Assembly: GCA_019454045.1 (NCBI GenBank)
Contig: SKCR01029092.1
Coordinates: forward strand, 62,001 to 126,000
Length of the DNA stretch: 64,000 nucleotides
Direction of reading: 5' to 3'
Source: Zanthoxylum bungeanum
Lineage: Eukaryota > Streptophyta > Magnoliopsida > Sapindales > Rutaceae
Numbering within the stretch: the first letter of the stretch is position 1; each line of letters starts with the position of its first letter. Shown here piece by piece: positions 12,696 to 61,990 of this stretch. The notes below the pieces were generated by a model. It was not told where the DNA came from. It saw only the letters and a program-made list of their open reading frames with translations, and searched no databases. The position numbers and the translations under genes are program-made.

Positions 12696-13652
12696 TGTTG
12701 ATGAGGATTTCTGCAACTAAGTTAATTGAACAGTTCGGCAAAAGTAGAGAGGGAATTTCCCACTTTTGGAGGATCAGATGTTCAGAGGTATTGATCAGTT
12801 CTCAGACAGTAAGAGAGTCCGGACTTTGTTTCCCAGATCTGGCCGACCAGAGGACACAACGCGTTGCAGGTTTCAGATACCGACAACCTCAGAGCCGAGG
12901 TCGACCACAGTAGACCGGCAACTAGGTTTGGTTTTATCTTACCTTCTGGAACAGGTTGATGAGCTCGGATATTTTTGGGTTAGAAAGAGAACAGTTTCAG
13001 TAGCTCGGTAGGTCATTGACCGACCTCCCTAAGACTGACGTGTGATCATGGGTAATTCTGACTTTTTCTTCTGACATATGCCATTATTTGAGAGTACTTT
13101 ACAGGCTGACGTCATTATTATTGCGTGTGGCAGTGGAGAAAACAAGGTGATGTGACAAGTCGTCATGTGGCAGGTTTGCTTTCGGCAAAGACAGTTTTGG
13201 GATAGAGGACCCGTCAATCAGTCAGAAGTTCACATAAGAGACGTCATGGAAGCATGGTAACAGTGTTGTAATTCTCTAAGTATATAAAGAGAAGATTATA
13301 TTCATTTGACGGGGATAGCGAAATTAATAGCATAATTTTGTAAAAGGAAGAGAATATTGCTTGTAAAAACACCACAAACAAACAACTCGATTTTCTTCGA
13401 TTCCATCCATAAACAGGTCGGCCGAGTTTGTTTTGGCAATAAAAGCTACCATCTACTTTGTGCCCGTGGACGTAGGTTGGATTAGCTCCACCGAACCACG
13501 ATAAACACTCTTTGTTGACCCTTGTGTTTTTCTTGCCTTCTTGCTACATTTGTTTTTGGTCTCCCATAACCAAACAAATTCAAGGTTGAAGGAAGATTAT
13601 CTCGGGATGGTTATTTCGAAACTGCCCCTGGGACGAAAATCAGCCGTCAACA
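12696..13652 (+). repeat. 5' LTR of element A
   Basis: A 957-bp LTR with TG...CA ends and the short terminal inverted repeat TGTTGA/TCAACA. A TATA box (tatataaaga) is at 13281-13290. It is nearly identical over most of its length to 31590-32535. Confidence 0.9.
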
Positions 13653-13774: not shown

Positions 13775-15893
13775 TGATGAGTGATATTTATATCACTATT
13801 CCCACTCATTTAATCTAATATTTTGTATAGTTTCTTGAGTTTTGTGAATGTTTTGATGTGTTTTGTGTTATTTTGTAGATAAATAAAGTTTCAGGACATT
13901 CTGGAGGTGATTTGGAGCAAAACAGTGAAAATTGGCGAAAAATGGCATTTTGGTAATTTCCAGCGTCGCGCCGCCCAGACCTTCCGCGTCGCGACGCCCA
14001 GCATGCGCCGAATCCGCTAACGTGCGCCGAGTCAACATGTCAGAATTTGAGAAGTTTGACTTTGCTAAAATGCGCCGTGCCACGTGTCACCATCACATCC
14101 AATCTGCTAATGTGTGTCGTGCCACGTGTCAACATCATATGCTGCCGACACTCAGACTTGACACGTGTCGCCTCGTCATCAGCCATGTCAGCGGTCAACG
14201 AGTCAACTTCGCCATGTGTCACGCCTCGTCATCAGCCACGTCACAAAGTCAACGAAGTCAACTTGCCACGTCAACATCAGCCAATCACAGCGTGACACGT
14301 GTCGCCACGTGTCGCAATCCTATTGTGCCGACAATTGCAACACACGCCAGAGCCACGTCATCGCCACGTCAGCGCCACGTCAGCATGACGTCATCACAAT
14401 AATTGAGTCTTAGCCGCCTTGCCACGTGTCGGGTGAACAGTCAGCCGCCATGCCACGTGTCGCCTCCTCAGCGTGCCACGTCTTACTATTCCAGCGTCGC
14501 GACGCTGGAGACAAAATTTTCTATAAATACTGCGCGAATTTCAGAATTCCGTGTGCCTTTCTCTCTCTCATCTCTTTGATGAAGAGAGAGTTTCTCTCCC
14601 TAAAAATATTTTAATTTTATTTTTTATTTTTTTAGTTTGTAATTTATTTTAATTACCATTTGTAATAATAGTAACTTAGTTTTTACTTTTTACTTTTTAC
14701 AGTTTTTACTATTCATGAGAAAGTAATTTCCCAGCTAGGGTGAAAGGTAATTCTTTTACTGTTACTATTTAGATTAATCTCCCTTAAAAATAATATATTT
14801 ACTAATTAAAATACTGATTAATAAAGGATACCGCTATATTGGTCGGTTGGCAATTTATTTTAATCTGGTTTAAACCTGACTTAAAAATGATACCGCTATA
14901 TTGGTCGGTTGGTAATTTAATTATGGTACCGCCTATATGGCTGGTTGGACTTAATTTGACGTAATCAGGATACCGCCAGATTGGTCGGTTGGTAATATTA
15001 TAACAAGTTTATATATTATTTTATGGGAGATATCTAAATTAGTAGTAGTAAAAGTAATTCCTTTTACCTTAGCATTTTATTTTATTTTACTTTTCAGTTT
15101 TACTTTTCAGTATTTTTACTTTATGTCTTTTATTTTTCAGTTACTAGTCCTAGTTATGTGTTAGTTATCTAGGGGTTGTGATGATTTCTAATATCACCGT
15201 ATTAAAAAAGGGTTAGATTATAGTTGGGGTAATTAAAAGAGTTATTTGTTGAGTCATAATCTTAATGCTTTTTATTAACCGATCACTAATAAAATTGATT
15301 AGGTAAACTTAAAATGAACTAGACATAGGGATTTTAAGTTTAAGACCTTAGTCTCAACAACCCACGATCTTCCTTAAGGATAGATAACCCTTTAATAGAT
15401 TTCCTTACAGGATATGAATATACCTGTCGGGTGGGGGTAGTCATAATTGGAACTCAATCTTAATGAATCTAGGTAATTTAATTGACATAGACATATGGTT
15501 CAATTGGATTATACTAGGTATTTGTAAATGATCATCGGAAGAGGCTTTTACATAATTTAGTGTTCCAGATTAATAATTCAATAATTTACCTAACTATGGT
15601 TTAACTACTTCATCTTTTAAATGATATTAGAATGATTCACAACCCTAGATTTTTGTGTCTTTTGTATTTTCTTTAGTATTTTCTTTTGTCTTTTTATTAT
15701 TATTTATTTAGCAACGCCACTATCAACCAATCAATCAAACAATCATTCTCTTCTCCATTTAATTAGATATTTGTAAATAAATAGATTCAATAATTAATAA
15801 CAACAGTAGTAATTAAGTCCTCGTGGGATCGATATTTTTATACTACTTGAACGATACGTGCGCTTGCGTATACGTGTGTGTTTACGCCGGTCA
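13775..15893 (+). repeat. 5' LTR of element B
   Basis: A 2119-bp LTR starting TGATGAG and ending CCGGTCA. It holds an array of ACGT boxes, a TATA box (14521-14528) and tandem ~55-bp phrases built on taccgctatattggtcggttgg (14830-15000, quoted loosely). The LTR runs into the primer binding site tggcgccgttgccgggga, a full match to the 3' end of tRNA-Asp. Confidence 0.9.
14079..14530 (+). promoter_or_regulatory. ACGT/G-box array and TATA box in LTR U3
   Basis: Seven CACGTG hexamers lie between 14079 and about 14460, mostly as gccacgtgtc or gacacgtgtc. Between them are further CCACGTCA and TGACGTCA cores. A perfect 18-bp palindrome, ccagcgtcgcgacgctgg, follows at 14491-14508. The TATA box ctataaata comes next at 14521. 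G-box and ABRE-like cores of this type are bound by plant bZIP and bHLH factors, so the array is a plausible inducible enhancer. It recurs in the 3' LTR (21650-22110) and in solo LTR C (23245-23697). Confidence 0.65.
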
Positions 15894-16025
15894 AGTTTTT
15901 GGCGCCGTTGCCGGGGACTTATTTTTCTTGAGTTGTTAATTTTGAAACTATCTAATTTACTTATATCTAATTTTCTTATTTTATTTTGTAATTTTTATTT
16001 CTTTTGTTTTCAGGTGATTAAAAAA

Positions 16026-17275: not shown

Positions 17276-17469
17276 CAGATGAATTTCAGTCACGTCTGGC
17301 TGAAGACGAAAAATTTAGCGCTAGCAGGGAGGCAACCCATGCAATTTGTTGTAATTTATTTTTGTGTGTGAACTTTTTAATTTTGTGTGTGAGTTTTGCA
17401 GGAAAAATTAAAAATGGAATTTATCAGGACAAAGCAAACCAGAACAAGCGGGATTTTCACAAAATAAAA

Positions 17470-18960
17470 ATTTGACAAAATCACGAAGATACAAAGTCAA
17501 TCCAGAAAAGCGGCCGAGTAAGAAGTCAGCTTTGGGACGCGTCCCTATGGATTTATCTGTCGCAAGACATGGTTTTGCCAAAAAAAAAAAAAAAAATTTA
17601 TTTCAGCGTCGCGACGCTGACTCGAAATCAGAGACACAAAACAGGGTGCTGGCAGTATCTCCTTTCACTCTTCATCTTCTTCATCTTCAACCACCAGCCG
17701 CATCAACAACCACCGCAAGCCAACCTACCGAGAGCCATCCTTGCCGTGAGCAAATCTTCGCCAGCCGAGAACCACAACCCACCGCCACAGCCGAGATCTA
17801 CCAGAAACCGAAACCCACCACACCGAGATCCACCAGCCGAGACACCACTAGCTGCACCCCTCACCCTTGCCGAGCCGAGATCTACCAGAAACCAGAAACC
17901 CACCATGGCCGAGCCTATCACCAAGATTCACCTCGCCCAAACCGCAACCACTCACCAAACCAGCAACCCGTGACCGAGCCCTTCCTTCGCCGAGTCAAAA
18001 CCGAGCCAGATCTGCCGTGAACCTCACCACCGAGAGACAACTAACACCCAAGGCCACAGCCGAGATCTACCAAAGCCACCCACTGCCAAGCCAACCACGA
18101 CCCACCACCGTGCACCACCACAGCCGAGACACCCAAACCGAGAACCAATAGAAGCCGAGACCACCACTGCCAGCAACTGATTCGGCCAAGTCACAAACCG
18201 AGCAACACAACACCAGAAAACTGAACCAACCCACAGCCGAAACCAGAAGCCACCGCCGTGAAACCAAACCGAGAGTCACCAGAAGCCGAGCCACCTAGAC
18301 CCAACCCACAACCAAGTCACAACCAATCCGTATCCTCACTGCCAAATCAAAACTAATTTTACGGTAATGATTTGATAAAAATTTGATTTGGTAATTGGTA
18401 AACTGAAAAAAAAATTGAATTGTGATTTGGTTGATTATGACTGTGGATTGGATTACGAATGTTGGATTGTTGGTAGTTTGATTCGTAGTCGTGGGGGCGA
18501 AGAGTTGAATTGGGGTATTTGTGGCATTTGATATATTTGGTTGTGTGGGATAATAAAAAAATTGAATGAGTTTGTGGTTGATTTTGTTGAATTGGAGGAT
18601 TGTGAATTTGGAAGTTTAGCGGTGAATAACTGGCTGAATTCTGAGTTTAGAATTGCCAGATCGATGGATTTTGTAGAATTGGGGGCGAAGTTTGACATTG
18701 TGGTGATTTTTGAAGTGTTAGTTTTAGGATGAATTTGGGGAAATTTTGAGTTTTATTTTGAGAGGAGACTCTGTCGAAATTTTCACTAAAAAATGATCAA
18801 TTATGATCGTGGTAAAAAACGTAAATTGAACATAAATTTTTCCTATCGGTAATTTTTCCTGTAAAATTTCAGCTGACCAGGTATTATCTTCTAAACTCTT
18901 TTATGTATACATAGTGTGAACTCTTTAATTTTGTGTGTTATTTTTGTAGGGAAAAGCACA
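17470..18960 (+). other. Unrecognised C/A-rich segment of element B
   Basis: From about 17640 to 18350 the plus strand is rich in C and A. It repeats phrases such as agccgagatctaccag and aaccgag, with Thr/Pro-rich frames but no conserved domain. It begins beside a copy of the LTR palindrome agcgtcgcgacgct (17605-17618). From 18350 to 18960 the sequence turns T/G-rich. In element F the equivalent position holds the 5' half of the viral-like ORF, so this segment appears to have replaced it in B. The origin is unknown; captured host DNA is possible. Confidence 0.5.
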
Positions 18961-18985
18961 AACGAAGCATTTTAATACAGAAGGA

Positions 18986-19120
18986 ATTGTGTTTGACAAT
19001 CAAAAAGAAGAGAGCTAATTCATTTGTGATGGCTAAGTAAAGAATTAAGTCTTGAGACACATTCTAATGAATTTATACTATGCGAGTGGCGTATTGCATA
19101 CACAATTCCGTTGCCTTAAT
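18986..19120 (+). pseudogene. Remnant of the carlavirus NABP-like ORF in B
   Basis: Aligns with the downstream half of the viral-like ORF of element F (minus strand, about 56160-56010), sharing phrases such as ggaattgtgt/ggaatagtgt and gatggctaagtaaag/gatggcttgagtaagg. Stops and frameshifts make it non-coding. Its presence shows that the common ancestor of B and F had both this ORF and the LOG-like gene. Confidence 0.55.
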
Positions 19121-19340: not shown

Positions 19341-19997
19341 ATGGAAGCCACTTCAAGAAGACGAGTTGAGAACATCTGTGTGTTTTGCGGTAGTACTGTT
19401 GGTACTAAACCACAATACATAGAAGCAGCACAGGAATTGGGTCGAGTTTTAGCCGCAAGGAATATGCACTTAATATATGGCGGAGGTAATCTTGGACTAA
19501 TGGGGATTGTTTCAAAGGCCGTACAGGAAGGAGGCAGTCACGTTTTGGGAATCATTCAAAACCCTTGGCAGAAGCAAATCTTATTGAACCAACAAACGGA
19601 GAGGAACTGATCGTGCCAGTAGTATGTCTGACGACGACTGGTAGAAATGATTAACCGTTCTGATGCTTTTATTGCTTTGCCAGGTGGCTTGGGTACATTG
19701 GAGGAAATATTTATTGTGTTATCTTGGGCGAACCTAAACATACACCAGAAACCAATTGGACTGTACAACGTTGATGGGTTTTATGATTTTCTTTGTGTGT
19801 TTCTTGATGATGCTCGAAGAAATGGGTTCGTGTCAAAACCTTTAAAAGAACTCCTTTTTACTGCCAGAACTGCTCCAGATCTAATTGACCAACTCATAGC
19901 CTATGAACCAAAAGTTGACCCTATCATATCAAAGATAAATTGGTCCGAGGACGATCGTGGTAAGAAGCGACGAATAAATCTGGATCTTAACCTTTAA
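19341..19997 (+). pseudogene. LOG-like: LOG-like cytokinin-activating enzyme carried by element B
   Basis: Intronless homologue of LOG, cytokinin riboside 5'-monophosphate phosphoribohydrolase. LOG enzymes release active cytokinin bases from their nucleotides in one step, in cytosol and nucleus. Visible family features, in order: ICVFCGS (residues 12-18), [10 protein letters not shown] (46-55), and the signature PGGLGTLEE at 19680-19706 in ADAFIALPGG-type context. Overall length is about 218 residues, as in plant LOGs. Compared with the copy in element F there is a one-base deletion near 19561 and a net gain of four bases at 19616-19640. The frame is therefore wrong over roughly residues 74-100, then restored. 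That region includes the expected catalytic Arg. The C-terminus is basic (GKKRRIN) and ends LDLNL. ATG 19341 follows an A-rich leader also present in F. Confidence 0.9.
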
Positions 19998-21347: not shown

Positions 21348-22679
21348 TGATGAATGATATTTATATCACTATTTCCCACTCATTTAATCTAATTTTTGTA
21401 TAGTTTCTTGAGTTCTGTGAATGTTGATGTGTTTTTGTGTTATTTTGTAGATAAATAAAGTTTCAGGACATTCTGGAGGTGATTTGGAGCAAAACAGTGA
21501 AAATTGGCGAAAAAGGGCATTTTGGTAATTTCCAGCGTCGCGCCGCCCAGACCTTCCGCGTCGCGACGCCCAGCATGCGCCGAATCTGCTAACGTGCGCC
21601 GAGTCAACATGTCAGAATTGAGAAGTTTGACTTTGCTAAAATGCGCCGTGCCACGTGTCACCATCACATCCAATCTGCTAACGTGTGCCGTGCCACGTGT
21701 CAACATCATATGCTGCCGACACTCAGACTTGACACGTGTCGCCTCGTCATCAGCCATGTCAGTGGTCAACGAGTCAACTTCGCCATGTGTCACGCCTCAT
21801 CATCAGCCACGTCACAAGGTCAACGAAGTCAACTTGCCACGTCAGCATCAGCCAATCACAGCGTGACACGTGTCGCCACGTGTCGCAATCCTATTGTGCC
21901 GACAATTGCAACACACGCCAGAGCCACGTCATCGCCACGTCAGCATGACGTCATCACAATAATTGAGTCTTAGCCGCCTTGCCACGTGTCGGGTGAACAG
22001 TCAGCCGCCATGCCACGTGTCGCCTCCTCAGCGTGCCACGTCTTACTATTCCAGCGTCGCGACGCTTGGCTGGGCGTCGCGACGCTGGAGACAAAATTTT
22101 CTATAAATACTGCGCGAATTTCAGAATTCCGTGTGCCTTTCTCTCTCTCTCTTTGATGAAGAGAGAGTTTCTCTCCCTAAAAATATTTTAATTTTATTTT
22201 TTATTTTTTAGTTTGTAATTTATTTTAATTACCATTGTAATAATAGTAACTTAGTTTTTACTTTTTACTTTTTACAGTTTTTACTATTCATGAGAAAGTA
22301 ATTTCCCAGCTAGGGTGAAAGGTAATTCTTTTACTGTTACTATTTAGATTAATCTCCCTTAAAAATAATATATTTACTAATTAAAATACTGATTAATAAA
22401 GGATACCGCTATATTGGTCGGTTGGCAATTTATTTTAATCTGGTTTAAACCTGACTTAAAAATGATACCGCTATATTGGTCGGTTGGTAATTTAATTATG
22501 GTACCGCCTATATGGCTGGTTGGACTTAATTTGACGTAATCAGGATACCGCCAGATTGGTCGGTTGGTATATTATAACAAGTTTATATATTATTTTATGG
22601 GAGATATCTAAATTAGTAGTAGTAAAAGTAATTCCTTTTACCTTAGCATTTTATTTTATTTTACTTTTCAGTTTTACTT
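21348..22679 (+). repeat. 3' LTR of element B, truncated
   Basis: Starts TGATGAATG and aligns to the first ~1330 bp of the 5' LTR, including all seven CACGTG boxes and the TATA box at 22101. It keeps a 27-bp stretch between two palindromes (22051-22086) that is missing in the 5' LTR. Alignment stops at 22679, where element A-type sequence begins. Confidence 0.88.
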
Positions 22680-22946
22680 TATCAAACCCTCAGGTGGAAG
22701 TGTTCCGACCTGACTCCTTTCACCTTTGAGGATCCAGAACGTGTCAAGGGATGGGTACATGTGGGAAACGCGTAAACCCCTCGTGGCACGCCAATCCCGG
22801 GTGTCATTATCAAACCCCCGAGGCCGGAGCATTACTACCCCATGACTCGCATATTTGAGGAGTAGCTCGGGTAAACCGGACTCATGGAGGTTTCTTCCCC
22901 TGCGAGTTGGCTAGTGACTCCCGTTGAGAACCATCTTGGGGTAAGG
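22680..22946 (+). other. Element A 3' noncoding sequence
   Basis: Matches the style of 27889-28100: gactcccgttgagaaccatc followed by ttggggYaagg. This is a ~130-bp unit repeated in A. The deletion that removed the end of the B 3' LTR and the coding part of A ends here. No coding sequence is seen. Confidence 0.55.
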
Positions 22947-25068
22947 TGATGAGCGGTATTTCTATCACTATTTCCCACTCATTTAACCTAATATTTTGTA
23001 TAGTTTCTTGAGTTTTATGAACGTTTTGATGTGTTTTGTGTTATTTTGCAGATAAATAAAGTTTCAGGACATTCTGGAGGTGTTTTGGGGCAAAATGGAC
23101 AAAATTGGGTAAAAAGGGCAAAATCGTCTTTTCAGTGTCGCGACGCTGAAGCCTTGCGCGTCGCGACGCCCAGCGTGCGCCGAATCTGCTAAAATGCGTC
23201 GGGTCCACAAATCAGAATCTGAGAAAGTTTGACTTTGCTAACGTGCACCGTGCCACGTGTCATTATCACAACGGAGATGCTAAAATGCGCCGTGCCACGT
23301 GTCGAAATCTTATTGCTTGGACGGCCACCGCCCCACGTGTCGCCACATCATCTTCCACATCAGCAGCCACGTCAGCAAGTCAACCGAGTCAACATGCCAC
23401 GTCATCATCAGCCAATCACAGCGCGACACGTGTCGAAATCTTATTCGTCTGACGGCCGCCGCCCCACGTGTCGCCACGTCGCCTTCCACATCATCAGCGT
23501 GACGCAAGCAATGACGTCATGAACAGTTGACACGTCAGCGTGACGCAAGCAATGACGTCATGAACAGTGCCACATCATCGGATAAGATTCTGAGCCGACC
23601 AACCAGCGCGTGACACGTGTCGAACTGTACCCAGCATCGCGACGCTAGTGCAATTTGGGCGTCGCGACGCCGGACCCTTATCCGAGCCTATAAATAGAGA
23701 TCGAATTTTCATAATTCATTGTACCATTCTCTCTCACTTCTTAGTTCTAAATTGAGAGTTTCTCTCTCTAGTTCTTTAAATTCAAGTTTTGTAATTACTT
23801 TTTAATAGTAATAATAATTTATTTTCTTTATTTTACAGTTTTTACTATTCACTATGAGGAGGTAACTTCCTTATGCTAAGGTGAAAGGTAATTCTTTTAC
23901 TATTGTTATTTAGATTAATCTCCCGTAAAAATAATATATTTACTATTTAAAATCTGATTAATAAAGGATACCGCCATATTGGTCGGTGATAATAAAATTA
24001 CTATTCCGCCTTTATGGCTGGTTATTTTGGTTTCGCCTTTATGGCTGGTTATTTTGGTTCCGCCTTTATGGCTGGTTATTTTGGTTCCGCCTTTATGGCT
24101 GGTTATTTTGGACTTAAATTGACTTAATCAGGATACCGCCAGATTGGTCGGTTGATAATAAATCACAAGTTTATATATTATTTTACTGTGAGATATCTAA
24201 ATAATTTATAGTAGAAGTTAATTCCTTTTACCTTAGCATCTTTATTGTATTTTTACTTTTCAGTATTTATTTCACAGCAATTACTTTTCAGCAGTTTATG
24301 TCTTTTATTTTCAAGTTTTACCAGCCCTAGCTATGTGTCATAACTAAGTTAGTATCTAGGGTTGTGATGAAATTCAATATCACGGGTTTATAAGGGTTAT
24401 ATTATAATTTGGGTAATATAAAAGAATTATTTATTGAGTCTTAATCTTAATGCTCTTTAATTAACTGGCCATTAATTAAATTGATTAGGTAAACTTAAAA
24501 TGAACTAGACATAGGGATTTTAAGTTTAAAACCTTAGACTCAATAGCCCACGATCTTCCTTGAGGATAGTTAACCCTTTCAATAGATTTCCTTACAGGAT
24601 AGGAATATACCTGTCGGGGGGGGGTAGCCATAATTGGAACTTAATCATAATGAATCTAGGTAATTTGGTTGACATAGACATATGGTTCAATTGGATTATA
24701 CTAGGTATTTGTAATTGACCATCGGAAGAGGCTTTTACATAAATTAGTGTTTCAGGTTAATAAATCAATATATTACCCAACTATAAAATAATCACTTTAT
24801 CTTTAAATAATATTGGAATAAATCACAACCCTAGATAGTTTTTAAAATTGAATTTTCTTAAAATCTACTTTTGAACAATTTTATTTTATTGTCTTTAAAT
24901 TTAGAATCGTCGCTATTTCAAATCAATTAAACAAACTGTTAGATACTAGTAATCATTTAACCTCATAAAATTAATAACTTAGGTATTAAGTCCTCACGGG
25001 ATCGATACTTTTTATATTACTTGAACGATACGTACGCTTGCGTTATACGTGTGTGTTTACGCCGGTCA
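22947..25068 (+). mobile_element. Solo LTR C (same family as B)
   Basis: A 2122-bp LTR from TGATGAGCGG to CCGGTCA with the target-site duplication TAAGG on both sides (22942-22946 and 25069-25073). No internal region or second LTR is present, so it is a solo LTR formed by LTR-LTR recombination. It keeps six CACGTG boxes (23245-23625), flanking GCGTCGCGACGC palindromes and a TATA box at 23690. It differs clearly from the B LTRs. Confidence 0.92.
24004..24111 (+). repeat. Four 27-bp tandem units in solo LTR C
   Basis: Units start at 24004, 24031, 24058 and 24085, each ttYcgcctttatggctggtt plus attttgg. They differ at one base. In the B LTRs the same region has single, more diverged copies, so the array expanded in the C lineage. 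Confidence 0.95.
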
Positions 25069-25169
25069 TAAGGCATGAGGACGGCTGAAAAGCCTTCATG
25101 ACCATTGTTACCTTAGGTAAACCGGACCGATGTAGGTTTCTCTTGGGGTTAGTGCTCTGAGCGCCAATC

Positions 25170-31589: not shown

Positions 31590-32535
31590 TGTTGATGGGG
31601 ATTTCTGCAACTAAGGTAATTGAACAGTTCGGTAAGGGCAGAGAGGAATTTCCTATTTTTGGAGGATCAGATGTTCAGAGGTATTGATCAGTTCTCAGAC
31701 AGTAAGAGAGTCCGGATATTATTTCCCAGATCTGGCCGACCAGAGGACACAACGCGTTGCAGGTTTCAGAGATCGACAACCTCAGAGCCGAGGTCAACCA
31801 CAGTAGACCGGCGGCTCGGTTTAGTTTTATCTTACCTTCTGGAACAGGTTGATGAGCTCGGATATTTTTGGGTCAGGAAGGGAACAATTTCAGTAGCTCG
31901 GTAGGTCATTGACCGACCTCCCTAAGACCGACGTGTGATCATTGGTAATTCAGACTTTTCCTTCTGACATATGCCATTATTTGAGAGCACTTTACAGGCT
32001 GGCGTCATTATTATTGTGTGTGGTAGTGGAGAAAACAAGGTGATGTGACAAGCCGTCAGGTGGCAGGTTTGCTTTCGGCAAAGACAGTTCTGGGGCAAAG
32101 GACCCGTCAATCAGTCAGAAGTTCACATGGGAGACGTCATGGAAGCATGGTAACAGTGTTGTAATTCTCTGAGTATATAAAGAGAATATTAGATTCATTT
32201 GACGGGGATATCGAAATTAATAGCATAATTTTGTAAAAGGAAGAGAATATTGCTTGTAAAATACCACAAACAAACAACTCGATTTTCTTCGATTCCGCAG
32301 ATCGGCCGAATTCGTTTTGGCAATAAAAGCTACCATCTACTTTGCGCCAGTGGACGTAGGTTGGATTAGCTTCGTCGAACCACGTTAAACACTCTTTGTC
32401 GACCCTTGTATTTTTCTTGCTTCTTGCTACATTTTCTTTTGGTCTCCCATAACCAAACAAATTCAAGGTTGAAGGAGGATTGTCTTGGGAGAGTTATCTC
32501 GAAACTGCCTCTGGGACGAAAATCACCCGTCAACA
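31590..32535 (+). repeat. 3' LTR of element A
   Basis: A 946-bp LTR, partner of 12696-13652, with TGTTGATG...GTCAACA ends. TSD TATAG follows at 32536-32540. The TATA box is near 32174. Confidence 0.9.
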
Positions 32536-51113: not shown

Positions 51114-51934
51114 ACATGAACGTAAGCATGAAAACATAACATGAACGTAAACATGGAAAACATAGCATGAACATAATATGGAAATCATAACATAAACATG
51201 CGCATGAAATACGTAATGTGATCATGTATATAGAAAACTATGTGAACATGGACTTAATGACGTGTTATAACATGAATATGTAAATGTGACGTATTATGAA
51301 CATGTAGATGTAACTTGAATGTAAATATGAAAACATAACATAAATGTAACATAAAAAAAATATTTAAACATGAAACACTCAGCATAGGTGTAAACATGAA
51401 ATCATAACATGACAAAAACATAAAAACATAATAAACTTGGAAAACATAAAAAGTAGTATTCACTCTAAGAACCGACGTCCAAATATTTATGTGATCATGG
51501 GACCGAAGAGACTCTCTTGCGTGGAATCTATCATGTGTTCAAATGCGATTACTGTATTTAAATATACGATCCTAAACATGCTCGTGAATGATGAAATGTG
51601 TGTAACCATGAAACCCAAGAGATTACATAGATGTCAATCATGCTTACTTAATTAATGTACTACCATCACAACCATAACTTAAATATCATCTAATCATGCT
51701 AATCCAATCTAAATTTAACACCAATTCAACATTCCATGCAACATGAATTTAAACCCAAATTATAAATTTCATGTCATGTTATCTCAATACTCTCAAATCC
51801 TAGGGTTTACACAACCCAACTACATAATACCTAAAATTTAACTTTACAAACTACCATAACAACATGAATTGGCTTATTACAAGCCTCCAAGATGAAAATC
51901 AACTTCAAAATTCTCAAATCCATGGCATGACACC

Positions 51935-53664
51935 TGACCGGTGCGTAATCACACGCGTATAACGCAAGCGCACGTATCGTTGAAGTAGTATAAAAAGTAT
52001 CGATCCCACGAGTACTTAAAACCTTTGCTATTAATTTTTTATGGGGTCAAATGTTTACAAGTATCTAATAGATTGATTGTTTGATTGGGTGGGACTTTAA
52101 AACTTAAAACAAGTAAATAAAATTTCTTGAAAGTAGATTGAAGAAAATTCAAATTTATAAAACTATCCAGGGTTGTGAATCCTTCCAATATCTATTAAAT
52201 ATGAAGTGGTTATCTTACAGTTGGGTAATATATTAATTTATTAACCTGGAACTAAATTATGTAAAAGCCTCTTCCGATGGTCAGACACAAATACCCAGTT
52301 TAACCCAATTGAACCATATGTCTATGTCAACCAAATTATCTGAATTCATTAAGTTTAAGTTCCAATTATGGCTACCCCCGCCCGACATGTATATGTCTAT
52401 CCTGTCAGGAACTATTAAAGAGTTATCTATCCTCAAGGAAGATCGTGGACTATTGAGTCTAAGGTCTTAAACTTAAAATCCATATGTCTAGTTCATTTTA
52501 AGTTTCTCAGTTCAATTTTATTAATGGCCAGTTAATGAAAAATCATTAAGATTAAGACTCAATAAATAAATCTTTATATTACCCAAGCTATAATCTAACC
52601 CCTTATAAATCGGTGATATTGGATTTCATCACAACCCCGGATAACTGGCTTAGTTACGACACATATTTACGGGTAGTAAAAATTTAAATAAAATAAAAGA
52701 CATAAAGTAAAATACTGAAAATTAAATTGCTGAAAAGTAAATGACGGAAAGTAAATGCTGAAAGTAAATTACTTAAAAGTAAATTGCTGAAAAGTAAATT
52801 GCTGAAAAGTAAATTGCTGAAAAGTAAATTACTGAAAAGTAAAAACTGAAAATTAAAGAAAGAAAAGTACTGTGCGTAAAAGTAAATTGCGGAAAGTAAA
52901 AACTGAAAAGTAAAGAAAAGAAAGTGCGAAAGCGGAAATTAATTACTGAAAGCTATAAATAAACAAACAAGATACAATCTTCTTAGTATTCTTAAGGAAT
53001 CCTTAGAAGAAAGTATGAATTTTACAAATGAAATGACTTGGTATTTATAGGTAAAATTTTGCCTCCATCAAATCATCCACCAAATCAATTATTAATTGCT
53101 CCACTAATTGCTCCACCAAATCCATTATTAATTGCTCCACTAATCTCTTATCATGTTTGGTGATGATTTGATAATTTTTATTATTTATTTAATAATTTAT
53201 TTTTTTGCTTTGAAAATGATTGAAAGTGACTTTAATAATTACACACAACACACTTCTGGATGGTTCATCAATTTCGGGCATGAAATCCTCAGAATTAGAA
53301 ATTATTTTGTCTTTCAAAGTTGTAGATATTTGAGTCTTATTTAAACTGGAACTTGAATCAACTCAATCCGATATCGGAGTAAAAAGTTATGCCCAAAATA
53401 CGACAGATGCGCAAAACTGGAATTTCCAAAACTGCACTTCGTCAAAAACGCCCTTTCAAGTTTCTAATCTCCAAAATTAAAATATCAAGTCCAATAATTG
53501 CCCTTATTTGACCCATATTTCGTCCTAAATGATTTCATTGAGATCCGATATTATTTTATCTGCAAAATAAACTAAAACACATCAAAACGTTCATCAAACC
53601 CGAGAAACTAAACAAAATATTAAGTTAAAGAGGCGGTAAATATTGATATATTTTCCGCTCATCA
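51935..53664 (-). repeat. 3' LTR of element F
   Basis: A 1730-bp LTR, inverse of TGATGAGCGG...CCGGTCA. It includes a run of gctgaaaagtaaatt-type repeats (52720-52930). The U3 lacks the CACGTG array of the B/C subfamily. Confidence 0.92.
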
Positions 53665-54214
53665 CACTCTCAAACCTAACATTTTGCTAGTCCTCGAGCA
53701 AAAAAATAAAATAAAATACAAGAAACAATTAAAATTAAACTAAGCCACTTTCGTAGGGATCACGGTTGCATTTAGCATATGCAACAAGCCTTTAAACCCC
53801 TAGATGTCCCTAGTGGACGAGTTATAGTCTCGTGAGGGCTTACAGCAACGATACCCACAAACATTTTACAAAAGTAAAAAGGTAGTGAAACTAATGCACA
53901 CAAAACCAAAAAGACAAGCGAAAAAAGAATAAAGATGTTAGTGACTAATCAGGTGAAACTTCTACTCAAAGTTACTAGTTGTTTTGTTTCATTCTAAATT
54001 ACCGAATAAGTAAATTCTCCGATTATTCATATACACAGCCAACAAAATATTTAACAAGTCATTTTTGCCCACAACAGTCATAAGTGCAGTTGATAAGAGA
54101 GTAATATTTTTGTTCTAAAGTTCTATCAGATTTCACACCTTTTTTGCAGCAATGAAATAATTTTTCTGATTTTTCTGATTTTTTCTTTGATTCTTCTCTA
54201 TTTTTTATTTATAT

Positions 54215-54455
54215 ACAATATCTTCCATCTATGTAACGAATGTTAGGTCGGTGGCTCCCAAACCAGTTGGCTTTAGGGCACCAGGTGTTAAGACACCCCT
54301 ACAGACTTAATTACTCAGACTTCAGAGATATATATATATATTTTTGCAGCATCTTTGATCCATGTAGCGAGCTTTGGGCCAGTGACTCCCAAACCAGTTG
54401 GTTTTAGGGCACTAGGTGTTAAAACACCCTTACAGACTTAATAACTCGGATCTGA
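54215..54455 (-). other. Conserved hairpin repeat block of element F
   Basis: Counterpart of 20550-20790 in B. It has two units with ggtgttttaacacc (or ggtgtcttaacacc) and aaaccaactggttt, each self-complementary. It is almost unchanged from B, although the LTRs of the two subfamilies have diverged widely. Confidence 0.75.
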
Positions 54456-54980
54456 GAATTTTTTTTTTACTCCATTGCTTTTTGAGATGCTTCCTCCAAT
54501 TTAACTAGAGAACTGAATATTACAAACTTTTCAATTACAGTTCATGTCCGTATGTTTCTATGTATGTTGATAATATCTGCTAACTGAACATATGAAGATC
54601 CATTTTAGTATGTTTTATGGAGAATTTACAAATTAAATAATTTAAAAGGAAATAAACAAAAATTAACTGATTTCGAAAATAGGCTTGAGATACGTCTCAG
54701 GAGTGGAAACTCCTTACTCAGCCATCTCTTACCAATTTCACCATTTTAGTCAAAATAAAAAGACAAAAACACAAAAATATTTTTGTAATTTTTGTAAATT
54801 TTTCAATTTTTTTGTATTTTTCGAAAAATTTTGGACTAAAAACAACACACAAACTAAAAAAGAGGTACTGATCAACTAATTCCCTCCCCCAAACCTAAAT
54901 GAGACATTATCCCCAATGTCTTAAACAATAGAAAAATAGTTTAGAAGATAATACCTGGTTAGCTGAAATTCTACAAGAAA

Positions 54981-55634
54981 TTAAAGGTTAATATCCAGAT
55001 TAATCCTACGCCTCTTACCACGATCGTCCTCGGACCAATTTATCTTTGAAATGATATGGTCAACTCGTGGTTCATAGGCTATGAGTTGGTCTATTAGATC
55101 CGGAGCAGTTCTGGCAGTAAAGAGGAGTTCTTTCAAAGGTTTCGACACAAACCCATTTCTCCGAGCATCATCAAGAAACACACAAAGAAAATCATAAAAT
55201 CCATCAACGTTGAGCAGTCCAATTGGTTTCTGGTGTATGTTCAGGTTCGCCCAAGATAGAACTATAAAAATTTCCTCCAATGTACCCAAGCCACCTGGCA
55301 AAGCGATAAAAGCATCAGCACAGTTAATCATTTCTACCAGTCGTTCAGACATACCTGGCACGATCAGTTCCTCTCCGTTTGATGATCCAATAAGATTTGC
55401 CTCTGCCATGGGTTTTGGAATGATTCCCAAAACGTGACTGCCTCATTTCTGTACGGCCTTTGAAACGATCCCCATTAGTCCAAGATTTCCTCCGCCATAT
55501 ATTAAGTGCATATTCCTTGCAGCTAAGACTCGACCCAATTCATGTGCTGCTTCTACGTATTGTGGTTTAGTACCAACACTACTACCGCAAAACACACAAA
55601 TGTTCTCAATTCGTCTTCTTGAAGTGGCTTCCAT
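54981..55634 (-). pseudogene. LOG-like: LOG-like cytokinin-activating enzyme carried by element F
   Basis: Intronless LOG homologue of 217 residues, in one frame from ATG 55634 to the stop at 54981. The only break is an in-frame TGA at codon 64 (55445-55443). ICVFCGS lies at residues 12-18 and [10 protein letters not shown] at 46-55. An Arg sits at residue 98, and the signature PGGLGTLEE (55298-55272) puts Glu at 120-121; these are where LOG catalytic residues are expected. The C-terminus is basic (GKRRRIN). It lies about 260 bp after the viral-like ORF and before the hairpin block and 3' LTR, as in element B. Host LOG genes have introns, so capture from an mRNA, or from an intronless paralogue, is inferred. 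A downstream ATG after the stop could still start a shorter product containing the signature. Confidence 0.92.
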
Positions 55635-55894
55635 TTTTTTTATGTATTTCTTTCTCAACTCTAGATGCCTTCAAAAGTGCAATGACGGGCTGAATTTATA
55701 GTACCTGAAAAGGGTGAGTAAAAATAACACAAGTATATTCCAGAGGACGATTAGTAGCGAAATAATATCGTGATAGTCAAAAAGGTCTGGATCCTGTCGG
55801 AGAAAATAAAAGAAAACAACAAAACAAATTACAATTATTAGGAAAAGACAAAGAGATATAATATTCACAAGAAAAGTAACAGCTTGATTGACGT
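55635..55894 (-). promoter_or_regulatory. Intron-like leader with conserved splice acceptors before LOG
   Basis: On the minus strand a T-rich tract ends in ctccgacag before gatccagac, and a second tract ends cccttttcag before gtactataaattc. Both AG sites and their following bases are conserved in B (near 19170 and 19270). They could serve as 3' splice sites making a subgenomic mRNA for the LOG-like ORF. The hydrophobic 90-residue frame across this stretch is a translation of the T-rich tract and I do not treat it as a gene. Confidence 0.4.
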
Positions 55895-56443
55895 CTATGC
55901 GTCGGGGACAAGCTTCCCATCCAATTTTCTTATAAATTGGCAAATAAGGTCTTTTTGAGTCAGATTCCCGAGACTTAACAGTTGTCTTTCTTTTTGAAAT
56001 TGTGTATATAATTTGCGAAAGGCTATGTGAACATATCCACTGGGATACGTCTCAAGAGTCGAAGATATATCATCTAAAGACTCCTTACTCAAGCCATCCC
56101 CAATGAATTTAATTTTGTCTTCGCGATTATCAGACACTATTCCTAAAGAAAGACAACGAGTATTGCAATTCTAGCGTGCACATTTATAACAAACACCCAT
56201 TTGCTTAGCTCTACATTTCTTTGCATAGGTGCTTCTTCCAAAACCAGGCAGATGTGAAATAAAAGAGTCAGAAGACTCACATGCCAATCGGACCCGTGCT
56301 TCAATAATCCAACGAATGTCAGTAGGAATACCTTTGATCATCAATAATCTCATTCGTTCCAAGCGAGCTTTGTATACTTTAATCAGAGATTTTTGAGGGA
56401 GAGAAGGAAATTGCTTGCGAAGATTTGCGAGAGCTTCTTCCAT
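55895..56443 (-). pseudogene. Carlavirus NABP-like cysteine-rich ORF in element F
   Basis: A frame of 183 codons from ATG 56443 to the stop at 55895, with one in-frame TAG at 56171-56173. The middle resembles the cysteine-rich nucleic-acid-binding protein of carlaviruses (Pfam Carla_C4). It has a short helical segment with IPTDIRWII, then GRSTYAKK and a basic patch, then VCYKC followed by further Cys residues after the TAG, and an IKFIGDG segment. In carlaviruses this protein binds nucleic acid through such a zinc-finger-like cluster and can affect RNA silencing. The ORF follows a pyrimidine tract ending tttttgtag just upstream of the ATG, so it may be expressed by splicing. The last 60 residues are unfamiliar. 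The match is by eye only; an unrelated zinc-binding protein is possible. Confidence 0.55.
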
Positions 56444-56635
56444 ATTGAAATGACTAAACCTACAAAAATTAAACACACAAAAATAAAACACACCAAATCA
56501 CAATATATACACAAATTGCATGGGTTGCCTCCTTGCGAGCGTTAAGTTTAAAGTCGTCAGCCAGACTTGACTTCTCGAACGTTAAGCTGGATCTGAAAGT
56601 GTAACACTTTCTTTTTGTCGCTCAAATGATTCTCC

Positions 56636-56938
56636 CTAGTAGTGATTGACACGCTTGTTTTTAACCTTGAAAGTTTTGTTGGAGTCAGGATCATGTATCT
56701 CAACGGCTCTATCTGGTAAAACTTTGGTGATCACAAATGGACCTGACCACCGTGATTTTGGCTTCCATGGGAAGAATTTCACCCTTGATTTGTTTAACAC
56801 TACCTTCTGCCCTGGTTCCAGTTGTATGCGCACTAACTTTTCATCATGTCTTTTCTTGCCATTTTTTTGTACAATTTGGCATCCTCAAAAGGCTGATTGT
56901 GAAATTCCTCCAATTCGTTGAGCTGGTGGAAATTTTTC
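56636..56938 (-). pseudogene. Integrase C-terminal fragment of element F
   Basis: HQLNELEEFHNQPFEDAKLY, then (after a stop and a frameshift near 56836) EPGQKVVLNKSRVKFFPW and KSRWSGPFVITKV. This is the C-terminal DNA-binding part of Athila-type integrases. It directly follows the protease-region frame, so most of pol has been deleted. The stop at 56636 is the expected end of pol. Confidence 0.8.
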
Positions 56939-56940
56939 TC

Positions 56941-59283
56941 TTATGTTGCTTGTAGAGCAAGAATTGGCTCTTTCAGTGTAAAAGATGTTTTATCTTTAGG
57001 CTCCACAGACAATTGACATGTTTTAAGTTTATCAGTAGAACTTTGCATTGCATTGGAGTTCTGAATGTTACTGTGTATCACATCAAGTTTGAAACATTCC
57101 TCATTCTTTTCATCATCTGGGAAATTCATTTCCTTGAAAACATTGAATGTTACTTCTTGGTCCTGTACCCTCATGGTTAATTCTCCTTTTTGTACATCAA
57201 TAATGGTTCGACAAGTAGCCAAGAATGGTCTCCCGAGTATGATTGACACGTCTGCGTCTTCCTCCATATCAAGGATAATAAAATATGCTGGGAAAATGAA
57301 TTTGTCAACCTTGACCAGCACATCTTCAACTACACCTCTCGGAAATACGAGCGTTCTATCAGCAAGTTGTAGTGAGACTGAAGTTGGCATTGTTTCTCCA
57401 ATCTGTAATTTCCTGAAAATAGAAAAAGGCATCAAGTTAACACTAGCACCTAAATCACACAGATCCTTACCGAAGTCATATTCTCCTATGGTGCAAGGAA
57501 CAGTGAAACTGCCAGGATATTTCAACTTTGGGGGAAGTTTCCTCTGAATGATAGCGCTGTATTCTTCTGATAATGCTACTGTCTCGTAATCTCCCAATCT
57601 CCGCTTTCGTGAAAGAATGTATTTCATAAATTTGGCATAGCTGGGCATTTTTTCCAACACTTCTGCAAATGAAATGTTGATATGCAGCTTTTTAAAGATC
57701 TCCAGGAACCGAGAAAACTGCTTGTCCATTTTGTTCTTCTGAAGACGTTGAGGAAAAGGTGGAGGTGGAATGATTTGTTCTTTTTCCTTTGCTTATTTTT
57801 CCTCCATCTGTTGCTTTGTTTCTTTTGGAACTTCCTCAGCAGCTGTTTTGGCTCCAACATCTTTGTTGATTTCAGTACCGCTTTTTAACATAATGGCATG
57901 ACATTGTTCCTTCCCCATATTTCTTGGATTTGGCTCTGTGTTGCTAGGAAAGGTACCTGGCGGTCTGTAACTTCGAGCATTTTCCAGTTGTCTAATTTGA
58001 TTCTCCAGTGCTTTAATAGAAGCAGATTGACCTTGAATTAATGCTGTTTGGGATTGAAACATAGCATCATATCTTGCTGCTTGAGATTGAAACATAGTAT
58101 CATATCTTGCTGCTTGAGAGTCGTGTTTTGATTCTATCTTTTTCAAAGGAGTCAACACTTCTGTTATTCCTGGTTCATTTGCCTGCTCCTGGCTTTTGTT
58201 CTGTTGTTGGAATCCAGGTGGTGGATAGTTCTGCTGTTAGGCTGAATTGTTGCTCCATGATAAATTAGGATGATTCCTCCACTCTGGGTTGTAGGTGTTG
58301 GAATATGGATTATTCCCCTGTCTGTTGAAATTGTTGACAAAATTCACCGTTTCTTCAAGTTGGTTCGACTCTGGTGCTCCTCCATATGGTGAACTTGTGG
58401 ATCCAGTGGTAAGAGTCTCCATGAATTTGCATATCTGATCTAGCTTGGTGTTGACTGCTGTATTGGCTCCACTTTCATAAATTCCTGCAATTCTTTGGAT
58501 CATGCTCTTTTCTGTTGGCCACAAGGAATTGTTGTTGGCCATTTCTTCGATTAGGTCTCAGGCTTGATCTTCTCCTTTTGCCATCAAGGCTCCTCCAGCA
58601 GCAACATCAATTGTGGTTCTCATTATTCCAGAAAGTCCATTATAGAATGTTTGGACTTGAAGCCATTTTGGAATCTCACGGTGAGGACATTTCCGGAGCA
58701 AATCTTTATACCTTTCCCAAGATTCGCAAATGGATTCTGAATCTTGTTGTACAAATGATGTGATGTCATTCCTCAGTTTTCCAGTTCTGGCTGGTGGAAA
58801 GTATTTTGCAAGAAATTTGGTGGCTAAAGCGTTCCAAGTTGTGATGGAACCTGCTGGTAGTGAATGTAGCCAAGCTTTAGCTCTGTCCTTCAAGGAGTAT
58901 GGAAAAACACGCAGTCTCATTGCTTCTTCAGCTTCTCGGTTGTAATTGAAAGTGCCACAAACTTCCAGGAAGTTGCTGATGTGGGCATTAGGATCTTCAG
59001 TTGCATTCCCCCCAAACTGAACTGACTGCTGAATCATCTGAATGCATGTTTTGATGTCACCTGCATTTGCTGGTAAGGGAGGAAGTACAATGCAAGAAAT
59101 GAGTCTGTCAACCACCGGAATGGTTCTGTCTCGAATGGGAATTGGTGGTGCAACGTTCAAAGGTTCAGGTTCCATGTTGACTAAAGCTTCTTGGCCTTCT
59201 CGCCTTTCCCTTCTCAGCTGTCTAATGGTTCTTTCAATTTCTGGGTCAAGCGGTCGAAGTTCAAAGCTTCTGGTTCGTCTCAT
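56941..59283 (-). pseudogene. Gag-protease polyprotein of element F, with three nonsense codons
   Basis: One frame runs from MRRTRSFELRPLD (59283) to 56941 without frameshift, broken by stops at 58558-58560, 58237-58239 and 57793-57795. Residues ~90-230 are the retrotransposon gag domain (for example FLEVCGTFN, KAWLHSLPAGSITTW, FLAKYFP). A Gln/Asn-rich linker and a coiled coil come next. The retropepsin-like domain has the active-site motif DLGASVNLMP near 57440 and ILGRPFL near 57230. The upstream ATG at 59307 lies before a tttcag acceptor-like site, so I prefer 59283. Downstream reverse transcriptase is missing. Confidence 0.85.
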
Positions 59284-59390
59284 GTAGTTTCTGAGAACCT
59301 GAAACACAAGAAAATAAAAACAATAAGTAAAAAGAAATTAGATACAAGTAACATATCTAACCCCAAAACTAATAGTGAAAGATAAATAAG

Positions 59391-59407
59391 TCCCCGGCAA
59401 CGGCGCT
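59391..59407 (-). other. Primer binding site of element F
   Basis: Inverse of tccccggcaacggcgct, matching the 3' end of plant tRNA-Asp except for the last bases. It lies seven bases inside the 5' LTR (59415). Confidence 0.85.
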
Positions 59408-59414
59408 AAAAACT

Positions 59415-61130
59415 TGACCGGTGCGTAATCACACGCGTATAACGCAAGCGCACGTATCGTTCAAGTAGTATAAAAAGTATCGATCCCACGAGGACTTAAA
59501 ACCTTTGCTATTAATTTCTTATGGGGTCAAATGTTTACAAGTATCTAATAGATTGATTGTTTGATTGGGTGGGACTTTAAAACTTAAAACAAGTAAATAA
59601 AATTTCTTGAAAGTAGATCGAAGAAAATTCAAATTTATAAAACTATCCAGGGTTGTGAATCCTTCCAATATCTATTAAAGATGAAGTGGTTATCTTACAG
59701 TTGGGTATATATTAATTTATTAACCTGGAACACTAAATTTTGTAAAAGCCTCTTCCGATGGTCAGACACAAATACCCAGTTTAACCCAATTGAACCATAT
59801 GTATATGTCAAACAAATTATCTGGATTCATTATGTTTAAGTTCCAATTATGGCTACCCCCGCCCGACAGGTATATGTCTATTCTATAAGGAAATCTATTA
59901 AGGGTTATCTATCCTCAAGGAAAATCGTGGACTATTGAGTCTAAGGTCTTAAACGTAAAATCCCTATGTCTAGTTCATTTTAAGTTTCCCAGTTCAATTT
60001 TATTAATGGCCAGTTAATGAAAAATCATTAAGATTAAGACTCTATAAATAAATCTTTATATTACCCAAGCTATAATCTAACCCCTTATAAACCGGTGATA
60101 TTGGATTTCATCACAACCCCAGATAACTGGCTTAGTTACGACACATATTTACGGGTAGTAAAAATTTAAATAAAATAAAAGACATAAAGTAAAATACTGA
60201 AAATTAAATTGCTGAAAAGTAAATGACGGAAGTAAATGCTGAAAGTAAATTGCTGAAAGTAAATTGCTGAAATGTAAATTGCTGAAAAGTAAATTACTGA
60301 AAAGTAAAAACTGAAAATTAAAGAAAGAAAAGTACTGTGCGTAAAAGTAAATTGCGGAAAGTAAAAACTGAAAAGTAAAGAAAAGAAAGTGCGAAAGCGG
60401 AAATTAATTACTGGAAGCTGTAAATAAACAAACAAGATACAATCTTCTTAGTATTCTTAAGGAATTCCTTAGAAGAAAATATGAATTTTACAAATGAAAT
60501 AGCTTGGTATTTATAGGCAAAATTTTGCCTCCATCAAATCATCCACCAAATCAATTATTAATTGCTCCACTAATTGCTCCACCAAATCCATTATTAGTTG
60601 CTCCACTAATCTCTTACCATGTTTGGTGATGATTTGATAATTTTTGTTATTTATTTATTAATTTATTTTTTTGCTTTAAAAATGATTGAAAGTGACTTTA
60701 ATAATTACACACAACACACTTCTGGATGATTCATCAATTTCAGGCATGAAATCCTCAAAATTCGAAATTATTTTGTCTTTCAAAGTTGTAGATCTTTGAG
60801 TCTTCTTTAATCTAGAACTTGAATCAGCTCAATCCGATATCGGAGTAAAAAGTTATGCCCAAAATACGACAGATGCACAAAACTGGAATTTCCAAAACTG
60901 CACTTCGTCAAAAACGCACTTTCAAGTTTCCAATCTCCAAAATTTAAATATCAAGTCCAATAATTGCTCTTATTTGACCCATATTTCATCCTAAATGATT
61001 TCATTGAGATCCGATATTATTTTATCTGCAAAATAAACTAAAACACATCAAAACGTTCATCAAACCCGAGAAACTAAACAAAATATTAAGTTAAAGGGGC
61101 GATAAATATTGATATATTTTCCGCTCATCA
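59415..61130 (-). repeat. 5' LTR of element F
   Basis: A 1716-bp LTR, close partner of 51935-53664, with only scattered substitutions and small indels by eye. TSD ACACC follows at 61131-61135. Confidence 0.92.
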
Positions 61131-61990
61131 ACACCCCTCCCCAATTTCTAGGTTTTTTTACTCAATTCATCCATACTATGTAATCCAACTTAAACCATGC
61201 ATGTATCATGTTATTAGACATTCATCTAAGTATTCTTAACTTGCTAATCATGCAAAATCATGAGAAATCAACATGGGTCAAAAATGGGTTTCAACCATAG
61301 CATGAAAAATTCATGGTAAAATACAAAATAAATGGTAAAATTGAAGATGAGGGACTTACTTGCTTCAATGGATGCTTGTAAATGCATGAAAAATTCAGCT
61401 TTGTACTTGATTTTATGGGGAAAATGGTGAGGGTTCCGAGAGAAAACAATAGAAAATGAGAAAGAAAATGAAGAGGGTGTTTATATATAATTCAGGCTGT
61501 GACCGGTATGTCGATCTAGAGACTGATATGCCGATTTCAGAAGCCCATTTCAAATATTCTAGAGTGCCTAAGATCGTTTAATGACCGGTATGGTGGCTTA
61601 GACCGGTATGATGACTGGTATACCGGTCTCAATGCACAAGTCCCATCATTGTGCAGAATATTTAGGAAAGTTCTTAATTTCAGCTTAGTTATGATCAAAT
61701 TTTAAAAAATTCTCAACATGAAAATTGTAGGTCTATGTCTTAACTTTCCAACGGTACTAAAATCACTAAAAATGGACACATTTAGCTCAAGTTATGGTAA
61801 AAATACTTAAGATTGTTCATGTATGCAATTGAGATAAATAAATGCTAAACTATAAAATTATTCTGATTTCCTGGTAAGGGTTATGCGGACAATGAACTCG
61901 GTAATGCGTGATTATATGCTTAATACAACTTCATATATGCAAGAAGTGATTGTTATGAATATGTCGTTGTAACTAGGGTGTTACATTATA

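Follow-up and report, generated by a model that had tools for sequence, protein, structure and literature searches.

A 64,000-nucleotide stretch of the Zanthoxylum bungeanum genome (contig SKCR01029092.1, positions 62,001 to 126,000; hereafter the window) contains two defective long terminal repeat (LTR) retrotransposons, elements F and B, each carrying a gene of the LONELY GUY (LOG) family. A leader and a 3' flank common to the two elements support the conclusion that this LOG cargo was inherited with the element lineage and is not a chance overlap, and purifying selection probably acted on the encoded protein during its travel. Three of the five residues proposed to form the prenyl site of LOG enzymes are replaced in F. 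We consider it probable that an Athila-type ancestor captured a plant LOG gene, which was then carried under selection with a remodelled pocket.

Shared LOG cargo of elements F and B

The main features have the following coordinates in the window.

51935-61130, minus strand: element F, a defective LTR retrotransposon, presumably Ty3/gypsy of Athila type, recognized by its LTR pair, target-site duplication, primer-binding-site (PBS)-like sequence, Gag and a protease-like frame
59415-61130, minus strand: 5' LTR of F, paired with the 3' LTR at 96.7% identity
51935-53664, minus strand: 3' LTR of F, paired with the 5' LTR
54981-55634, minus strand: LOG-like gene of F (PF03641), full length, intronless and in sense orientation, with one in-frame TGA at 55443-55445
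13775-15893, plus strand: 5' LTR of B
21348-22680, plus strand: 3' LTR of B, cut off at 22680 and preceded by the purine-rich GTTAGGTTTGGGGGTG
19341-19997, plus strand: LOG-like gene of B, frame broken by indels, at the same relative place as in F

A preliminary description of the window had assigned LTRs and a target-site duplication to F, and both were confirmed. The two LTRs agree in 1658 of 1715 ungapped aligned columns (Kimura two-parameter distance, K2P, 0.034; the alignment took three extra bases at one end of each LTR), and the 5-bp duplication GGTGT is found at 61131-61135 and 51930-51934, outside the TG...CA ends. Downstream of an integrase-like remnant, the order in F is a frame resembling the nucleic acid-binding protein (NABP) of carlaviruses, the LOG-like gene, a tandem-repeat stretch and the 3' LTR. 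The gene occupies an env-like position between the integrase-like remnant and the 3' LTR. Its earlier placement between pol and the 3' LTR holds as far as a sense-oriented LOG after an integrase-like remnant is concerned, but reverse transcriptase and most of the integrase are missing. Likewise, the gene is full length, intronless and has the PGGxGTxxE motif as first described, but is interrupted by the TGA. The 153-amino-acid piece after this stop matches PF03641 (E 4.6e-32), and the pieces before and after it match AtLOG3 (2a33), the best-scoring solved relative, with E-values of 1.2e-16 and 1.4e-36, respectively.

In B, the LTR pair is identical in 1299 of 1313 ungapped columns (K2P 0.011), and no target-site duplication is readable because the 3' LTR ends at 22680. 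Its assignment to a different subfamily was judged fair, the matching parts of its 5' LTR being about 77% identical to the F LTR. A homologous LOG at the same relative position, as claimed earlier, is present in B, but with a broken frame. The sequence PGGLGTLEE is found in the LOG of both elements.

F and B have the LOG, the leader before its ATG and the sequence up to the 3' LTR in common (2339 aligned columns, 87.6% identity), in agreement with the earlier proposal that the gene travels with the element lineage. The LOG DNA itself is 93% identical (609 of 653 ungapped columns), and the sequence from LOG towards the 3' LTR 90% (1139 of 1264; K2P 0.107). Codon counting between F and B, covering 191 codons outside the damaged parts, gave 24.5 synonymous and 13.5 non-synonymous differences, with 23 of the 38 differences in third positions. 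The ratio of non-synonymous to synonymous substitution rates (dN/dS) was 0.148 (bootstrap 95% 0.064-0.309; Fisher P 4e-8). Control values were 0.77 and 1.48 for forward frames 1 and 2 of the same DNA, 0.96, 5.3 and 0.35 for the antisense frames, and 0.55, 0.64 and 0.72 for the three frames of the downstream flank, which showed no codon periodicity. Because the differences in the LOG frame are mostly synonymous, its protein was probably under purifying selection during its travel with the element. If neutral change since insertion is set at half the distance between the LTRs of each element (about 0.017 + 0.005 per site), some ten non-synonymous changes would be expected over 440 sites, and the frame may therefore have been even more tightly constrained before insertion.

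Pocket residues and origin of the element LOG

Residue positions are given in CgLOG numbering. Arg99 and Glu122 are the proposed catalytic residues of that enzyme, and Met96, His97, Lys100, Glu125 and Trp129 its likely prenyl site; the latter five are identical in AtLOG3, OsLOG, CpLOG and CgLOG, and the Mycobacterium marinum LOG (MmLOG) departs at positions 97, 125 and 129 (PMC4979012). Lys100 is furthermore among the residues named as binding adenine, and activity was nearly lost when such residues were changed to alanine (PMC4979012). Both catalytic residues are present in F and B, and R99, T119, E122 and W129 are kept in the two. At positions 96, 97, 100, 125 and 129, F has M, S, L, I and W, and so departs from the prenyl-site set. 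B, in frame from R99 onwards, has L, I and W at 100, 125 and 129, positions 96-97 lying before the frame break. The changes at 100 and 125 predate the split of F and B, since they are common to both. The residues H, K and E occupy positions 97, 100 and 125 in AtLOG3 and in 80 of 80 bacterial LOG loci from GTDB (the best 80 of 550 relatives, with a query spanning positions 119-129), and the same letters are found in AtLOG8 and in the solved Pseudomonas and Bacillus LOG proteins.

As H97, K100 and E125 are replaced by S, L and I in F, the label "hormone-activating" or "cytokinin-activating" given to the element LOG in the preliminary description has to be regarded as unproven. The prenyl-site residues would bear on the choice of substrate rather than on membership in the LOG family, since MmLOG departs as well. 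The likeliest reading of these residues is that the chemistry is unchanged and the base pocket altered; loss of activity is possible, but would fit badly with the observed constraint.

With AtLOG3 the element LOG shares 47% identity over 136 amino acids (134 bits), and with AtLOG8 (1ydh) 39% over 142 amino acids. A midpoint-rooted tree of the C-terminal part was built from 86 sequences, comprising the 80 GTDB LOGs, two solved bacterial LOGs, AtLOG3, AtLOG8, F and B. In this tree F, B and the two Arabidopsis proteins split from the rest with a support of 0.974, the Arabidopsis pair has a support of 0.897, and F and B are sisters on a stem of 1.22 substitutions per site. A bacterial origin was raised by a 49-amino-acid core up to 77% identical to the bacterial LOG L001 and by the 50% identity to this locus over 124 amino acids. 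The higher score of AtLOG3 (134 bits, compared with 118 for L001) and the grouping of F and B with the Arabidopsis LOGs in the tree led us to reject this origin. A search of IMG/VR for LOG relatives gave no pattern match.

Proposed history, alternatives and known systems

Host LOG genes have introns. The intronless frame in the elements suggests that an ancestor of Athila-type elements took up a spliced plant LOG mRNA, possibly by template switching during reverse transcription. The gene would then have been carried in sense in the env-like position, its coding frame kept by selection as indicated by the F-B dN/dS. F and B would be dead descendants which have lost pol functions and in which the LOG-breaking mutations most simply arose after insertion. 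With its phosphate-binding motif and catalytic Arg/Glu pair retained, the element LOG most likely acts on a nucleoside monophosphate by splitting the bond between base and ribose. Because the proposed base/prenyl pocket is remodelled, this substrate may now differ from the usual cytokinin nucleotides.

Several observations weigh against this history. The synonymous divergence of LOG (dS 0.21) exceeds the divergence of the flank (K2P 0.107), and parts of the elements may therefore have recombined; antisense frame 2 of LOG also has a low dN/dS (0.35). The evidence consists of two copies, both broken and neither intact, known from DNA sequence alone. With Lys100, named for adenine binding in CgLOG, replaced, the element LOG could be inactive, and the changes at 97 and 125 are not unique to it, as MmLOG is altered at 97, 125 and 129 (PMC4979012). 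The choice of the 80 bacterial loci favours conservation at the positions compared. The plants in the tree are two Arabidopsis fragments only, and long branches may mislead. Finally, L001 is 50% identical to the element LOG over 124 amino acids, more than the 47% of AtLOG3, yet with the lower score.

Part of this evidence would suit a passive cargo, whose low dN/dS stems from recombination with host LOG genes or from another constraint on the DNA and not from a protein function for the element. The excess of dS over flank divergence hints at mixed histories, and the low value in antisense frame 2 points the same way. We nevertheless find this explanation quite improbable: of all frames compared, the LOG reading frame is the most constrained, and the 47% identity to AtLOG3 on a long stem disfavours frequent conversion by host genes. 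Two LOGs captured or overlapped independently, or host pseudogenes met by chance, would account for a gene that is broken in both copies. This is highly improbable: F and B have homologous sequences in the leader, between LOG and the 3' LTR and in an upstream NABP-like remnant, and their LOGs, which are 93% identical in DNA, form a sister pair in the tree. Host pseudogenes overlapped by chance are rejected in view of the common flanks.

A tentative alternative, rather unlikely but the strongest of these, concerns the activity: the element LOG may act as a normal cytokinin-activating phosphoribohydrolase, increasing free cytokinin in the cells that express the element and favouring dividing or germ-line cells. 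The retained PGGxGTxxE motif and catalytic Arg/Glu, the purifying selection on the frame and the rank of AtLOG3 as top-scoring solved relative agree with such a role. It has to be set against the replacement in F of three of the five proposed prenyl-site residues that are identical in four LOG enzymes (PMC4979012). Capture of a plant LOG followed by selected carriage with a remodelled pocket is the explanation that we prefer.

The preliminary description knew of no account of a hormone-activating enzyme as stable retrotransposon cargo, but the novelty of LOG as cargo is not borne out. Two Athila-like elements similar to LOGL4 were reportedly found in 2011 by Steinbauerova and colleagues. YgdH domains, which are of LOG type and otherwise found in the LONELY GUY family, have been published for Ty3/gypsy consensus elements of Citrus sinensis and C. 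clementina and, with the authors' filter lifted, of Populus trichocarpa (PMC9289625). A retrotransposon-borne LOG is therefore not new, and that result is described as being in line with the cited study of Steinbauerova et al. 2011 (PMC9289625). As in F and B, the LOG-family domain is an extra coding region of these elements; unlike F and B, they are described, in the available text, without a selection test, pocket residues or an NABP-like neighbour (PMC9289625). Neither constraint on LOG, nor pocket changes, nor an NABP-like neighbour are reported in the available parts of the main text of PMC9289625 or of PMC6317226, PMC7264820 and PMC11963269. Orchid Ty3/gypsy elements with an open reading frame (ORF) for an AlkB-type N6-methyladenosine (m6A) demethylase resemble F and B as a plant lineage carrying an enzyme gene, but the enzyme is another one, it is active in vitro, and the elements are 25 kb long and similar to Ogre; AlkB domains occur in flexiviruses too (PMC9289625). 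The plant LOGs AtLOG3 and AtLOG8 share the family, PGGxGTxxE and the catalytic Arg and Glu with the element LOG, which differs from them in its retrotransposon location, in the 47% and 39% identity and, in F, in S, L and I at three proposed pocket positions.

What makes plant retrotransposons keep additional genes downstream of pol is a standing question. In F and B, a known type of extra gene combines signs of selective retention with a changed substrate pocket, and its function can be tested by enzyme assay.

The NABP-like frame and other features of the window

Directly upstream of LOG, the NABP-like sequences lie as follows.

55898-56443, minus strand: carlavirus NABP-like frame of F, broken by TAG at 56171-56173, its first half matching PF01623
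18982-19107, plus strand: remnant of the second half of this frame in B

The first half matches PF01623 (Carla_C4) with 23.5 bits (E 5.6e-5) in a longer cut and 24.2 bits (E 3.4e-5) in a shorter cut, above the gathering score of 20.9 bits. The match spans positions 29-61 of the 91-position profile and includes a basic stretch and a CxxC. A match to PF05515 (Viral_NABP) remained just below its own cut-off, and none of nine shuffles of the first half matched either profile. The second half gave no Pfam match above cut-off. Its remnant in B was detected by tblastn (E 0.005 at 18983-19117) and by a DNA score of 67, compared with a maximum of 48 in 500 shuffles. The first half was not found in B, with a score of 28 that was reached by 48 of 200 shuffles. 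A structure model of the first half was poor (predicted local distance difference test, pLDDT, 61.9); with this model, none of 13 matches in BFVD had an E-value of 0.001 or below, and the NABP of Sweet potato chlorotic fleck virus ranked sixth (E 6.1). An IMG/VR search with the first half yielded 17 pattern matches, none of which was confirmed.

The resemblance to carlavirus NABP (PF01623) is thus in the first half; the F frame differs in being broken by a stop, in its unmatched second half and in its location inside a retrotransposon. From the profile match, a viral origin of the frame is plausible. Ty3/gypsy elements are known to carry zinc-finger extra domains (AIR1; PMC9289625), and a literature search for retrotransposons with carlavirus or NABP sequences made no such element evident from titles and abstract openings. 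With the second-half remnant in B, the frame probably belonged to the same module in the common ancestor of F and B. Both genes could form a foreign module kept as helpful to the element in its host, the NABP having come from a carlavirus-like RNA virus and the plant LOG having been repurposed by its pocket changes for a different nucleotide, although we think this unlikely. A virus-derived neighbour, if confirmed, would mean that a retrotransposon had acquired a gene from an RNA virus.

The remaining parts of the two elements are listed below.

59391-59409, minus strand: PBS-like sequence of F, TTAGCGCCGTTGCCGGGGA, following the 5' LTR
58558-59337, minus strand: Gag ORF of F (PF03732, Retrotrans_gag, E 1.6e-22)
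56941-57792, minus strand: protease-region ORF of F, placed after Gag, with a weak match to PF08284 (RVP_2, E 0.066, below cut-off)
56636-56884, minus strand: integrase C-terminal-like remnant of F, with a weak match to PF22938 (E 0.025, below cut-off)
54206-54457, minus strand: two tandem copies with a 131-bp period in F (repeat family D7), between LOG and the 3' LTR
15899-15917, plus strand: PBS-like sequence of B, TTGGCGCCGTTGCCGGGGA, following the 5' LTR

The PBS-like sequence of F is presumably of tRNA-Asp type, and the segment at 56636-56884 is taken by us, beyond its weak match, to be an integrase C-terminus. The name Athila for F and B is presumptive and was chosen from the PBS-like site, from the appearance of Gag and from precedent. 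Only 56 bases separate the protease-like frame (ending at 56941) from the integrase-like remnant (starting at 56884), and F accordingly has no reverse transcriptase, RNase H or most of the integrase.

No reverse transcriptase was found in B: the [FYLM]xDD motif occurs in one of 33 interior frames of at least 50 amino acids, and that frame is LOG. A Pfam scan of 13 of the 19 plus-strand frames (two of the other six being LOG) gave no reverse transcriptase or integrase family at E-values up to 0.1. The first long frame of B resembles part of the Gag region of F (29.6%, E 3e-4) and matched no Pfam family above cut-off. A second version of the LOG tail and its downstream sequence, diverged from the first, lies at 18779-18902, upstream of the NABP-like remnant (DNA score 98, against at most 44 in 500 shuffles); B may have been assembled from two element versions. 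A proline-rich stretch at 17412-18340, with frames of 201 and 165 amino acids without Pfam match, could be another captured fragment.

Elsewhere in the window, the segment at 22947-25068 is a solo LTR, related to the LTRs of both elements and with TAAGG on both sides (22942-22946 and 25069-25073). A direct duplication outside both elements links 12696-13652 and 31590-32535 (957 aligned columns, 92% identity), and a repeat array with units of about 100 bp occupies 987-1639. A gene fragment with PRP3 splicing-factor domains at 8037-8945 marks the stretch as gene-bearing eukaryotic DNA.

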